DNA from: Bacteroidota bacterium | GTDB lineage: Bacteria > Bacteroidota > Bacteroidia > UKL13-3 | Assembly (NCBI GenBank): GCA_947460345.1 | Contig: CANHGM010000008.1 | Coordinates: 36,964 to 100,963, forward strand | DNA length: 64,000 bases | Direction of reading: 5' to 3' | Shown: piece after piece, positions 1,478-39,524 of the stretch | Numbering within the stretch: the first letter of the stretch is position 1 | Layout: each line of letters starts with the position of its first letter | Position numbers and translations under genes: made by a program | Notes under the pieces: generated by a model | The model's input: only the letters and a program-made list of their open reading frames with translations | Database searches by the model: none | Told to the model about the DNA's origin: nothing

Positions 1478-3364
1478 TTAATGCTCTAAATATTGCCTAA
1501 ACACCTCTTGCAAGTAACTCTTCCCTTCTTTTAACAATTGCGGGGTCATCGTTGTATCGGTTATATAATTGTGGTGATACTCCCCTCCTCTAAACAAATC
1601 TATAGAATATTCGTTTCCTGGTCGCATATATATAAACCCATCTGGACTATATGGCATATATGCAAACTCTTGATGGTATGGATTTAACATATTTCTACTC
1701 CATATAAATTCTTGGTGTTTCAATCCTAACTGATTAAGCAGAATTGCTGCTAAATCATGCTGTTGTATCATTTTAGTATACTTAACTCCTCTGTATTCTG
1801 GCTTGATCACTTGTCCATAAAACAACATAGGTATATGATGATGTCTAGCACAAAAAGGGTCTGTATGCAAATGGGTTGGATGTGCATGGTCTGAAACAAA
1901 TATAAACAAGGTATTGTTAAACCATGGTTGCTTTTTAGCATCAGCTATAAACTTACCAATGCTCTTATCTGTGTAATGAACTGAGTTAAGATAAGGTTTC
2001 TCATCTCCACCTTTCTTTATCACCTCTTTCATAGGTTGGTCATACGGGCTATGACTACTCAGTGTGAATATACTATTAAAAAAGGGTTGTTTAGATTGAG
2101 AATTTTGCTTGTTTAGCTCAGCAAATATATATTCATCAGGTATACCTAATTTCCCTTCCGGATATCCTGAAAAATCTTTCCCTTCTTTGATTACATCAAA
2201 ATTATTATACCACATATATCCTTTAATATTTCCATATATCAATTGGCCTCCAAACTGAAATGAGGTATGATAACCCGCTTGTTTAAATGAATTAACGATA
2301 CTAGGCAAATGCTGAAACTTATCAGGTTGTGATATGATTGAATGCTCTGGTTGTGCTGGAAAGGCACTCCATATAGAAGCCATACCTTGTTCTGACCTAT
2401 CTCCACTTCCATAGCATTCAGTAAACAAAAATCCATCATCGCATAGCTTTTCAAATTCTGGTGTTATACCACTATCACCTTGAGTATACTTAATCATATC
2501 AGCACTCCAACTTTCTAAAATCACTAATACCACATTAGGTCTGGTGTTGTTTAATATCATTATAGAAGTATCTTTTGAAACTTCGAACATTCCTTTTAAT
2601 GTTTTTTGTGCTTCATCATCCGTATAAAATTGATACGGATTTTTATCGGTATCAATACTCATATTTTGATATATGCTATTCATAAAGTTCCAAAATGAAT
2701 TGGTGGCAGCCACGTTCAAATCGTTGCTTTTGCTATAATAACATTCACTTTGGTTAATGGGTATTTGTTGTAAACCGCCTCTTAAACCAATAGCTACCAA
2801 AAATGCACTTATAAGCAAATAGGGAAACGGAAAAATCCAATTTTTATCAAGTTTTTGTAAATGAGTATATATATATTTATTGAAAAATAAAATTCCAATA
2901 CCTGCCTGAAAAACAATAAAGAACAAAGCAACTACGGTAGTTTTAACACCAGCCGTATTAATAACTTCATCTGGGTTAGACAAATATTTAATGGCTTTGT
3001 AATTTAGTTTCGCTCCCCATTCACTATACAGTTGCAATTCTGCACCAGTAATAATAGATATATAGGCTATGATGATATAAAAATAATACCTGATGATATA
3101 GTTAAATAAGTTTAAGCCTATGAGCGATTGTAAAAACATCAATAAGACAGGAATACCCATAATATAGGCTGTGGCAGATAAGTCTAGTCTTAAAGCATGT
3201 ACAAACAACATTAAAATATCTGACCAACTATTGGTGAATATTTTATCAGCATGATAGAAAATAAACACCAACTTATTGAGCGTAAAAAACAACAATATAA
3301 ACAGCACCATTTTTAAGGTGTTTTGTATAATATTTTTTAAATTATATGGTGTTGTAATGTTCAA
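1478..3364 (-). CDS. LTA synthase family / sulfatase-fold phosphoglycerol transferase-like membrane protein
   Basis: N-terminal TM segments followed by sulfatase-like domain (NVVLVILESWSADMI, FTECYGSGDRSEQGMASIWSAFP, FIFVSDHAHPTH); TTG start. Confidence 0.85.
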   Translation of the reverse strand: MNITTPYNLKNIIQNTLKMVLFILLFFTLNKLVFIFYHADKIFTNSWSDILMLFVHALRLDLSATAYIMGIPVLLMFLQSLIGLNLFNYIIRYYFYIIIAYISIITGAELQLYSEWGAKLNYKAIKYLSNPDEVINTAGVKTTVVALFFIVFQAGIGILFFNKYIYTHLQKLDKNWIFPFPYLLISAFLVAIGLRGGLQQIPINQSECYYSKSNDLNVAATNSFWNFMNSIYQNMSIDTDKNPYQFYTDDEAQKTLKGMFEVSKDTSIMILNNTRPNVVLVILESWSADMIKYTQGDSGITPEFEKLCDDGFLFTECYGSGDRSEQGMASIWSAFPAQPEHSIISQPDKFQHLPSIVNSFKQAGYHTSFQFGGQLIYGNIKGYMWYNNFDVIKEGKDFSGYPEGKLGIPDEYIFAELNKQNSQSKQPFFNSIFTLSSHSPYDQPMKEVIKKGGDEKPYLNSVHYTDKSIGKFIADAKKQPWFNNTLFIFVSDHAHPTHLHTDPFCARHHHIPMLFYGQVIKPEYRGVKYTKMIQQHDLAAILLNQLGLKHQEFIWSRNMLNPYHQEFAYMPYSPDGFIYMRPGNEYSIDLFRGGEYHHNYITDTTMTPQLLKEGKSYLQEVFRQYLEH

Positions 3365-3563
3365 TAGAATAAGGGTGCAATATTAACTAATTATATGGGA
3401 TTTGTATATATTTAGCAATTATAGTTTAGTCATAAAAAACATTGTAGCTAGCAATACCAGGTTTCAAAACTTGCTTTTATATAATTTTATTTTTATATAG
3501 TAAGTAAGCGGCTTGCTTTTGATTTAATTAATTACGAATAGATTTATTTATAAGAATAAATCA

Positions 3564-3595
3564 TAAAAAAAACCACCTCAAATGAGATGGTTTTT
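3564..3595 (-). terminator. intrinsic terminator of the ribosomal protein operon (downstream of rpsC)
   Basis: Minus-strand AACCATCTCA-TT-TGAGGTGGTT followed by a T run; 10-bp stem with one G-U pair. Confidence 0.8.
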
Positions 3596-3617
3596 ATGTT
3601 TATGCAATTATATAAAA

Positions 3618-4433
3618 CTAACTTCTTGGTCTTCTGTTTTGGCCACCAGGTCCACCTTGACCAGGTCCGCCTCTTCTTTCTCCACCACCAGCATTGTTTC
3701 TACCTCTAGGTCTGCGGTCGTCTCCACCACGGCTATCATTTCTACGGTCATCACCACCTCTACCTGAAGGCTTTTCAGCTACCACAAAATTAGGGTTTAG
3801 GTCACGTTTCCCATAAACTTCACCACGGCAAATCCATACTTTAATACCTATTTTACCATATACTGTTAATGCTTCGCTCAATGCATAATCGATATCTGCT
3901 CTAAGTGTATGCAAAGGAGTTCTTCCATCTTTGTATTGTTCGCTACGAGCAATCTCAGCTCCACCTAAACGACCAGATACCATGATTTTGATTCCTTCAG
4001 CACCCATTCTCATAGTAGAAGCGATAGACATTTTAACTGCACGCTTAAATGATACACGAGCTTCTAATTGTTGAGCTATAGATTCACCTACCAATTTAGC
4101 ATCCAATTCAGGACGTTTGATTTCAAAAATGTTGATTTGAACATCTTTTTTGGTAAGTTTTTTTATTTCTTCTTTGATTTTATCAACCTCAGCACCACCT
4201 TTTCCAATCACAATACCTGGACGGCTAGTGTGAACAGTAATGATAATACGCTTAAGCGTTCTTTCAATTACAGTTCTAGCGATACCACCTTTAGGGATAC
4301 GTGCTTTTAAATAATTTCTGATTTGATCATCTTCAATAAGTTTTTCAGCTCCTTTTTTACCAGCGAACCAATTTGAATCCCATCCTTTGATGATTCCTAA
4401 TCTAAGACCTATCGGGTTTACTTTTTGTCCCAT
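3618..4433 (-). CDS. rpsC: 30S ribosomal protein S3 with Arg/Gly-rich C-terminal extension
   Basis: [25 protein letters not shown]-domain [14 protein letters not shown]; tail [24 protein letters not shown]. Confidence 0.98.
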
Positions 4434-4454
4434 TTTATATTATTTAGTCGAGTA

Positions 4455-4823
4455 TTAATTTGATTGAGTTTCTACAGTTGTTTGCACTTTGGTATCAACC
4501 ACTAAAGTGATGTGATTTGAACGCTTACGAATTTTGTAACCACGTCCTTGAGGTGCTGGTTGCATACGTTTAGCAATCATTCCACCATCTACAAAAACAG
4601 TTTTAACAACTAGGTCTTCAAAATTTGTGCTTTGATTCACTTGACCCCAGTTAGCAATTGCTGATTTAAGCAATTTCTCAACATATAGGGCATACATTTT
4701 TCTATTGTTGAAACGTAGGATATTTAAAGCATCTTCTACTTTTTTACCACGAATCATATCTACCACTAATCGCATTTTACGAGGCGACGTAGGGCAATTT
4801 CTTAATTTAGCAACAGCTTCCAT
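4455..4823 (-). CDS. rplV: 50S ribosomal protein L22
   Basis: [46 protein letters not shown]. Confidence 0.97.
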
Positions 4824-4839
4824 CTATGTTTAATTCTTA

Positions 4840-5106
4840 TTAATTATTTTTTACTGGGTGACCTTTGAATGTACGAGTAGGTGAAAACTCTCCTAGTTTA
4901 TGACCAACCATATTTTCAGTTACATATACTGGTATAAATTTATTACCATTATGAACAGCGAACGTATGTCCAACGAAATCAGGAGTGATCATCGAGCGTC
5001 TGCTCCATGTTTTTACTACTGTTTTCTTTTTATTGTCATTTAACTGAAGAACTTTTTTCTCCAATTTATAATCTACAAAAGGACCTTTTTTGAGTGAACG
5101 AGCCAT
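4840..5106 (-). CDS. rpsS: 30S ribosomal protein S19
   Basis: [19 protein letters not shown]...[22 protein letters not shown]. Confidence 0.98.
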
Positions 5107-5134
5107 GTATTCTTATGTTTTTATTAATAGGTTA

Positions 5135-5959
5135 TTATTTTTTTCTTCTCTCTAAGATATACTTACTTGAAGCATTTTTAGGTTTACGAGTTTTGTATCC
5201 TTTAGATAGCAATCCTTTACGTGAGCGTGGATGTCCTCCTGATGCACGTCCTTCACCACCACCCATTGGATGGTCTACAGGATTCATGGCTACACCTCTC
5301 ACTCTTGGTCTGCGACCTAACCATCTGCTTCTACCAGCTTTTCCACTATATACCAAACTGTGGTCAGGGTTAGATACAGAACCAATTGTAGCTAAACAAT
5401 TAATTAAGATCATACGAGTCTCACCTGAAGGCATTTTTAATGTTGCATACTTTTCAGTACGTGCTAATAATTGTGCATATGAACCAGCTGAACGAGCCAT
5501 TTTACCGCCTTGTCCAGGTCTTAATTCTATGTTGTGTATAATAGAACCTAAAGGTATTTCACTTAATGTCATGGTATTTCCAACTTCAGGTACTGAATTT
5601 GGTCCGCTCATGATTTCTTGTCCTACTTTTATTCCATTTGGAGCTATTATGTATCTTTTTTCTCCATCGCTGTATTTAACTAATGAAATAAAACAGCTTC
5701 TGTTTGGATCGTATTCTACAGTTTCAACCACTGCAGCTACGCCATGTTTGTCTCTTTTAAAATCAATTAAACGATATTTTTGTTTGTGACCACCGCCTAT
5801 ATAACGCATAGTCATTTTACCTTGATTGTTTCTTCCTCCACTTTTGTGGATAGATTCAGTCAAAGATTTTTCAGGTCTATTTGTGGTTAACTCAGCATAA
5901 GTATTGGCTACTTTGAAACGAGTTCCTGGGGTTATTGGATTAAATCTTTTTACTGCCAT
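5135..5959 (-). CDS. rplB: 50S ribosomal protein L2
   Basis: [43 protein letters not shown]. Confidence 0.98.
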
Positions 5960-36379: not shown

Positions 36380-37279
36380 ATGAAAAAAATAATAGTAGTA
36401 GCAGGGGCAACAGGGAATCTGGGTGGTAAAATAGTAGATGCCTTGTTAGCTAAAGATGTTGAGGTGAGAGCCATCGTTCGTTTAGAAACAGACTTAAAAA
36501 AAATAAAAGCACTAGAGCAAAAAGGTGTGAAAGTTTTTCAGGTGGATACAAGCAACAAAACAGAGATTTCGACACTTTGTATAGGAGCACATTGTTTGGT
36601 GTCTGCCTTAGCTGGTTTGCGTGAAACCATTATTGATGCTCAAAAAATATTTTTAGATGCAGCAGTTGAAGCCAAAGTTCAGCGGTTTATCCCAAGCGAC
36701 TACTCTAGTGATTTTACCAATTTAATTGAAGGCAAAAACAGGAATTTAGATTTTAGAAGAGAATTTCACAAGTACCTAGATGCAGCTCCAATACAAGCCA
36801 CAACTATATTTAATGGACCGTTTATGGATTTGTTAACTACTGATATGCCCTTGATTCTATTTAAACAAAAACGAATTTTATGTTGGGGCAATGCCCAACA
36901 AATTATAGAATTTACTGCTACTGATAATGTTGCGGCATATACAGCAGAAGTAGCTATAGATGACAACACACCAAGATATATGAGAATTGCAGGTGACAGA
37001 CTTTCGTGCCAAGATTTTGTGGAATTACTATCTACTATCACAAATGAAAAATATAAAATTTTAAGACCGGGAGGCATTGGTTTATTAAATTTTCTTATTA
37101 ATACAATTCGATACTTTTCTCCTTCACCTAACGAACTTTATCCTGCCTGGCAAGGTATGCAGTATATGAGAGATATGATGGAGGGTAGAATTATTTTTCA
37201 AGCATATGACAACAGCAGGTATAGCAACATCAAGTGGACCACTGTGAAAGAATTTTTAATAAAAGAAAAGAAATCTTAA
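36380..37279 (+). CDS. NmrA-like NAD(P)-binding protein
   Basis: MKKIIVVAGATGNLGGKIVDALLAKDVEVRAIVR; ORF opens at 36314. Confidence 0.85.
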   Translation: MKKIIVVAGATGNLGGKIVDALLAKDVEVRAIVRLETDLKKIKALEQKGVKVFQVDTSNKTEISTLCIGAHCLVSALAGLRETIIDAQKIFLDAAVEAKVQRFIPSDYSSDFTNLIEGKNRNLDFRREFHKYLDAAPIQATTIFNGPFMDLLTTDMPLILFKQKRILCWGNAQQIIEFTATDNVAAYTAEVAIDDNTPRYMRIAGDRLSCQDFVELLSTITNEKYKILRPGGIGLLNFLINTIRYFSPSPNELYPAWQGMQYMRDMMEGRIIFQAYDNSRYSNIKWTTVKEFLIKEKKS

Positions 37280-37371: not shown

Positions 37372-37650
37372 ATGACAAATAAAAATATCATAAAGGCAGC
37401 TGGAACAATTTCGATTCATAAAAACGTATCAAGCTTGTTTGATTTTTTTGCTAATCCTACGAACGACAACCTATGGCGAACAGAAATAAATAAAAGTATT
37501 TTAGACGGAGCGTTACAGCTAGGTGCAACTGTATCAGAATATTCAAATTTATCTAAAAAAGCATCAAATAATTTATTGGTATCACCCACATTTGCACGAG
37601 ATGACCGAAGAGCAAATTACAAAAGGCATTGGCGGATTAATAATAGTTAG
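37372..37650 (+). pseudogene. truncated SRPBCC-like N-terminus running into an unrelated frame of a multicopper oxidase gene
   Basis: KAAGTISIHKNVSSLFDFFANPTNDNLWRTEI resembles the start of an SRPBCC protein; similarity is lost after about base 37570, where the alternative frame becomes WYHPHLHEMTEEQ. Confidence 0.55.
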
Positions 37651-38926
37651 AGATTCAATAGAAAGTGCTTTGGCATTGCCTCGATCATATGGTGTAGATG
37701 ATATACCTTTAGTGCTAACAGATAGAGATTTTAGTACTTCCAATCAATTTACTATGGTACCTTATGGTGACAGTATGCTAACCAATATGACTTTAAGAGC
37801 TCAATACCAGGTACCCGCTCAAGTAGTAAGATTTAGAATATTGAATGGAGCTATTGAGAGAAGTTATAATTTAGGATTTAGCGATGGAAGAAGCTTTTCC
37901 ATCATTACTTCAGACGGAGGTTTATTAAATGCTCCGGTGAGTGTCACTAAATATATACTACATGCCGGTGAACGTATTGAAATATTAGTAAACTGTTCAG
38001 GTCAGAGCGGAACTTCAGTAGATTTGAAAGCCTATAATTCTTTGCTTGCAGGAAATGTAGCAGGTGGCGAAAATTTTAATAATGGTCCATTTGCCAATTA
38101 TTTAGGAAAAAAAGATTTCAATATTCTACACTTGAATATAGGAGCACAAACGGCTAATGCAATCACTACCATCCCTAAAACCTTAATCACCAATATTTTG
38201 TTAAACTCAGCAAATGCTAATATCACAAGAAAACTAACAATAAGCGACAGTGCTGGTTTGCCGAATATACAAGGACCTAATGCTTTTATATTAAACCACA
38301 AATTATTTAATATTAACTACAACGAATATCAAGTGCCGTTAAACAATACAGAAATTTGGGAAATCACAAGTTCATCTGCTTTTGGACATCCATTTCATAT
38401 ACATGATGTTGAATTTAATATCATTTCAGTGAATGGAGTTGCTCCTACAGCTGCGCAAGCAGGATGGAAAGATGTAGTATTTATACCGGGCAAAACAGGC
38501 GGAGGTCCTGGCAACCCAGGCACTCCAAGTGTAGTTAAATTCATAGCGAAATTTGATGACTATGCCGATGCACTCCATCCATTCATGTATCATTGCCATA
38601 TAAGTTTACATGAAGACGAAGGAATGATGGGACAATTTGTAGTGACCAATCAGAATGCTGTTGCTGATTTAAAAAACACAGATATTCTTGTTTCTCTTTA
38701 TCCTAACCCAACCAATAACAAGTTATATATAGAGTTTAAAAATCAGAACCAATCAGCTTATTATATAACCATCACAGATGTTTTAGGCAGAACCAAAGTG
38801 ATGTTACCTAAACCTGAATTGCTGAATGGTATAGATGTGAGTCATTTGAGTAAAGGTATCTATCATTTAACTATTATCGAAAATAACAGCAAGCAGACTA
38901 CCACAAAAACATTTGTAGTAAACTAG
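37523..38926 (+). pseudogene. multicopper oxidase lacking its N-terminal cupredoxin domain, with T9SS type A sorting domain
   Basis: HPHLH, HPFHIHD and HCHISLHEDEGMM copper motifs present; no signal peptide and no first HxH motif; C-terminal VSLYPNPTNNKLYIEF. Confidence 0.75.
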
Positions 38927-38930
38927 TAAC

Positions 38931-39524
38931 ATGAGACGAGTTTTTATAGCTATCTTAAGTGTTTTAATTTTCTTTATACATTCAAGTTTTATTTCTACTA
39001 AAGTAATACAAGATTTTACTTTGAGAAATACCAATGGCAAGTGGGTTTCAACAAGAGATTATAAAGATGCTAAAGGATTTATCGTTATATTTACCTGTAA
39101 CCATTGTCCATTTGCAAAATTATATACCAAGCGGATGAATGAGTTAAACACAAAATTTTCAAAATTAAATGTACCCTTAATAGCTATTAACAGCATGGAT
39201 ACATTGGTATATGAAGATGAAACATTTGAGATGATGCAAGAAAAGGCCAAGCACGATAAATTTAATTTCCCATATCTACAAGATGCCAATCAACAGATAG
39301 GCTTAAAGTTTGGAGCAGAACATACACCCATGGCTTATTTGATATGGAAAGAAAAAGGTCAATGGATTGTGAAATACAAAGGAGCTATTGATGACAATGG
39401 AGAAAAACCTGCACTAGCTACTTCATATATTGTTAATGCAACAAACGAACTACTACTAAACAAAGAAGTAACATTGCCCGTTACGCAATCATTTGGTTGT
39501 AGGATTATATATAGGAATAAATAA
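38931..39524 (+). CDS. thioredoxin-fold/redoxin domain secreted protein
   Basis: VIFTCNHCPFAKLYTKRMNEL; GAEHTPMAYLI. Confidence 0.85.
   Translation: MRRVFIAILSVLIFFIHSSFISTKVIQDFTLRNTNGKWVSTRDYKDAKGFIVIFTCNHCPFAKLYTKRMNELNTKFSKLNVPLIAINSMDTLVYEDETFEMMQEKAKHDKFNFPYLQDANQQIGLKFGAEHTPMAYLIWKEKGQWIVKYKGAIDDNGEKPALATSYIVNATNELLLNKEVTLPVTQSFGCRIIYRNK

Follow-up and report, generated by a model that had tools for sequence, protein, structure and literature searches.

The window analyzed here is a 64,000-nucleotide stretch of a Bacteroidota genome, a draft assembly of 3.0 Mb in 76 contigs that is 99.3% complete. In the region of interest the gene order is DUF3050, NmrA, a stump of an SRPBCC-like gene joined to a stump of a multicopper oxidase (MCO), and AhpC (Table 1). 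The ATG of the NmrA-like gene lies where homology to its relatives begins (36380), and the in-frame ORF is open from 36314.

Table 1. Features surrounding the junction, in window coordinates
Feature	Coordinates	Strand	Basis
DUF3050 gene, 260 aa; upstream neighbor in common with locus L046	35498..36280	+	Pfam PF11251, E=2e-97
NmrA-like NAD(P)-binding gene, complete	36380..37279	+	Pfam PF05368, E=7e-27
SRPBCC-like gene, 5' piece, ~69 of ~155 codons	37372..37578	+	match to complete 153-aa protein
Junction, SRPBCC-like / MCO-like	37573..37578		codon-level comparison; relatives' DNA match from 37574
Headless multicopper oxidase with T9SS C-terminal sorting domain	37574..38926	+	Pfam and homologue alignment
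AhpC/TSA thioredoxin-like gene, conserved partner 3' of MCO	38931..39524	+	Pfam PF00578, E=3e-16

The ORF that begins at 37372 encodes 92 aa, ends in LLVSPTFARDDRRANYKRHWRINNS and has no Pfam match. Over its first 64-65 residues it is 66% identical to a complete small protein of the SRPBCC/Polyketide_cyc2-like type (genome G259, locus L031), which belongs to another family within the same class; complete proteins of 151-157 aa gave weaker matches. Whereas the G259 protein has 153 residues, homology in the window copy ends at residue 69 (base 37578), leaving ~69 N-terminal residues of a superfamily domain that is ~150 aa at full length. Past that point the frame is out-of-frame read-through, unlike any relative, to a stop at 37648-37650. 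The initial annotation had described just such an SRPBCC-like start running into a poor frame, and no full-length SRPBCC homologue that ends naturally at 37650 was found. The homologues L034 and L036 match Polyketide_cyc2 at E=4e-4 and 9e-6, respectively, both below the curated cut-off. Since these longer relatives fall just short of it, the designation "SRPBCC-like" is reasonable, if not firmly proven by profile.

The overlapping oxidase frame runs for 467 aa without a stop (37523 to 38926) and reads YWYHPHLHEMTEEQ at 37574. Its Cu-oxidase_3 match covers only profile positions 87-117 of 119, compared with 11-116 or 15-117 in complete relatives, and is followed by Cu-oxidase, Cu-oxidase_2 and a T9SS tail (PF18962, E=1e-13; TIGR04183 above cut-off). 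With so little of its first domain matched, the oxidase is headless. The remnant retains HPHLH, HPFHIH and HCHISLHEDEGMM; measured against CueO-type MCOs (PF07732/PF00394/PF07731), it keeps copper motifs 2-4 along with domains 2 and 3, but the first HxH motif (HWHG), the signal peptide and the greater part of cupredoxin domain 1 are gone. It thereby falls short of the three cupredoxin domains and four HxH motifs of a functional multicopper oxidase, and by inspection the hydrophobic, signal-like leader of its relatives is missing. These results uphold the earlier description of a second frame encoding an oxidase with later copper motifs and a sorting tail but neither a signal peptide nor the first HxH. 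The start codon had been misread: position 37523 carries a GTG instead of an ATG. It does lie inside the SRPBCC part as claimed, and the 17 N-terminal residues of the oxidase ORF are the SRPBCC gene read out of frame.

Within the same taxonomic family, oxidases that share 75-84% identity with the window copy are full-length, their open frames spanning 587-637 aa. Their alignment runs from a signal-like leader through an LWIPDTLSGT...FWGPT block and a HWHGMHLPAVMDGGPH block, which contains the first HxH copper motif, to YWYHPHLH, where the window oxidase begins. Its first conserved residue, the Tyr encoded at 37574, corresponds to residue 131-170 in the same-family ORFs, so that the relatives carry a head of about 130-170 residues ahead of this point. 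One genome per species was then scanned for public MCOs. Among the 80 best relatives (loci), homology starts at window ORF residue 18, next to the YWYHPH tyrosine, or at residue 11 with looser ends; every one of the 80 carries H[WFYL]HG farther upstream in that frame, and none has the sequence that precedes 37574 in the MCO frame of the window. No relative shares the N-terminus read from 37523, and homology begins at 37574 at both the protein and the DNA level. Bacteroidota MAG loci that combine a T9SS-tailed MCO with an AhpC/TSA gene (L010, L013 and L043-L046) are 79-84% identical to the window copy over the retained part and have the same downstream partner gene; each of these MCOs has a complete head and its own start, neither of which the window copy has.

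The closest solved structures are CueO-type enzymes, with 6evg as the best match, and complete relatives match CueO over all three domains. The trinuclear copper center of CueO is situated between domains 1 and 3 and has eight histidines as ligands (PMC2661564). In a CueO-related enzyme, the four copper regions are H101-H103, H141-H143, H443-H448 and H499-H505 (PMC4454072); in CueO, H103 serves as a type-3 ligand (PMC6155172). When the window copy is mapped onto CueO by sequence, the region equivalent to H101-H103 is missing. Along with its export signal and its own start, the oxidase would have lost two of the eight histidines of the trinuclear cluster; as a result, the protein should be neither exported nor active, as judged from this mapping.

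The SRPBCC-like and MCO-like homologies overlap by ~5 nt at 37574-37578 (TATTG, inside TTATTG), so the junction truly exists in the sequence and is no product of chance. G+C is alike on either side. Direct repeats at the junction amount to a few bases at most; long repeats were thus rejected as its cause, and repeat-driven assembly collapse is not suggested. In bacteria, truncated pseudogenes arise by short-homology (illegitimate) deletion. The ~5-nt overlap is compatible with such a microhomology joint, with the breakpoint placed no more narrowly than 37573-37578. As in pseudogenes of this origin, two adjacent genes are cut and joined with few bases in common; nothing notable differs, but the event in the window looks unusually fresh.

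Both genes are complete in relatives, where intact versions had been proposed as a check. The oxidase is paired with the AhpC/TSA-like gene in most relatives. In one of them (L046, MAG RH-9nov16-282), a DUF3050 gene (78% identical), a complete oxidase (80%) and an AhpC gene (71%) stand in the same outer order as in the window, with a 397-nt spacer between DUF3050 and the oxidase. The NmrA gene has relatives of up to 81% identity, yet in no other locus examined does NmrA adjoin DUF3050, SRPBCC or MCO. Likewise, SRPBCC relatives occupy unrelated places and are never beside NmrA or DUF3050 in the loci examined. The possibility that NmrA and SRPBCC formed an ancestral pair was rejected, as this adjacency occurred in none of the NmrA or SRPBCC loci examined. 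Judging from the single syntenic relative, NmrA-SRPBCC seems to have been inserted at the locus. The same junction was not found in the other genomes searched, and a search of plasmid DNA for the locus gave no match.

We consider it likely that a real and very recent DNA rearrangement occurred in this lineage, in which a deletion, possibly accompanied by insertion of the NmrA-SRPBCC segment, broke both genes. The event itself is most likely an ordinary deletion, that is, ordinary gene decay. Ancestrally, the order would have been DUF3050, a complete secreted CueO-like multicopper oxidase and an AhpC/TSA-like protein. A segment carrying NmrA and the SRPBCC-like gene would then have been placed between DUF3050 and the oxidase, and a deletion of at least ~0.65 kb, its ends sharing few bases, would have taken the end of the SRPBCC gene and the beginning of the oxidase gene. 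Alternatively, insertion and deletion may have happened together in one illegitimate recombination. Either way, the stumps would have been fused out of frame, leaving a broken SRPBCC start that reads into junk until 37650. Against this history, DUF3050 adjoins MCO in L046 only, and NmrA-SRPBCC occurs in no relative.

It is also conceivable, though a good deal less probable, that both the SRPBCC and the oxidase gene are intact in the real genome and that the assembler misjoined the two stumps, either as a contig chimera or by collapsing strain variants. The junction is unique to this assembly, the draft comprises 76 contigs and the oxidase remnant is undecayed although its head is lost; all three points weigh against a deletion scar. 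After a simple misjoin of two loci, however, the remaining halves would normally turn up on other contigs, and neither the lost oxidase head nor the lost SRPBCC tail was found in the remainder of the 99.3% complete genome. Nor was a second copy of the MCO found there; other matches span the sorting tail only. The junction shows no common repeat of assembler k-mer length. The DUF3050 and AhpC genes keep the order of L046, making a random contig chimera less likely. Matching outer neighbors, together with the lost pieces being nowhere in the genome, favor a scar at or about 37568-37577, where the initial annotation had placed a scar or chimera.

In order to gauge the age of the loss, 93 columns of the retained catalytic part, each with 97% or higher identity across 87 relatives, were examined. 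The window oxidase departs from none of them (0/93) and contains no stop codons; a decay signature was looked for in the remnant and none was found. In a simple neutral simulation, the probability of no departure was 7% at a divergence of 1% and 2% at 1.5%. Such an undecayed remnant implies that the head was lost very recently, that the junction is an artifact or that the remnant is still selected. A very recent loss, under roughly 1.5% neutral divergence, fits best unless artifact or selection is responsible, because the lost pieces are missing from the genome and the outer synteny is retained.

Selection would require a function. The 467-codon open frame and its full set of retained conserved residues could be taken to mean that a headless protein, started at GTG 37523 or a later codon, works in the cytoplasm. 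We regard this as very improbable: none of the 80 public loci and no close same-family copy is headless, the T9SS sorting tail persists without an export signal, the first HxH motif that supplies trinuclear-cluster ligands in CueO is gone and the 17 N-terminal residues are out-of-frame SRPBCC sequence. Slightly less probable still is that selection maintains the headless oxidase in a new role, as a two-domain cupredoxin remnant in the cytoplasm; were this true, it would account for the unchanged conserved residues. A natural chimeric gene, with SRPBCC and oxidase joined via programmed frameshifting, is scarcely credible: the open frames do overlap by more than 100 bases (37523-37650), but both domains would be partial, and the joined arrangement occurs in no relative, which leaves a single copy for comparison of slippery elements.

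The value of the finding lies mainly in correct annotation. The gene would otherwise be recorded as a 467-aa multicopper oxidase with a T9SS tail; it should instead carry the label of a truncated pseudogene, or of a suspect join, and the 37574-38926 locus should not be counted as giving this genome a working secreted copper oxidase.

Several smaller observations were made along the way. A distant oxidase match in L024 (G021:C1:1294914-1295975) contains seven in-frame stops (2 TGA, 2 TAG, 3 TAA); it may be a further oxidase copy in decay, or the stops may stem from the reading-frame scan. In L046 the DUF3050 - multicopper oxidase - AhpC/TSA cluster spans 2103-5643; other DUF3050 neighborhoods are unrelated, and the three genes may thus move as a unit. 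The AhpC/TSA-like gene at 38931-39524 belongs to a conserved pairing with the secreted copper oxidase, which it follows in the majority of Bacteroidota loci examined.
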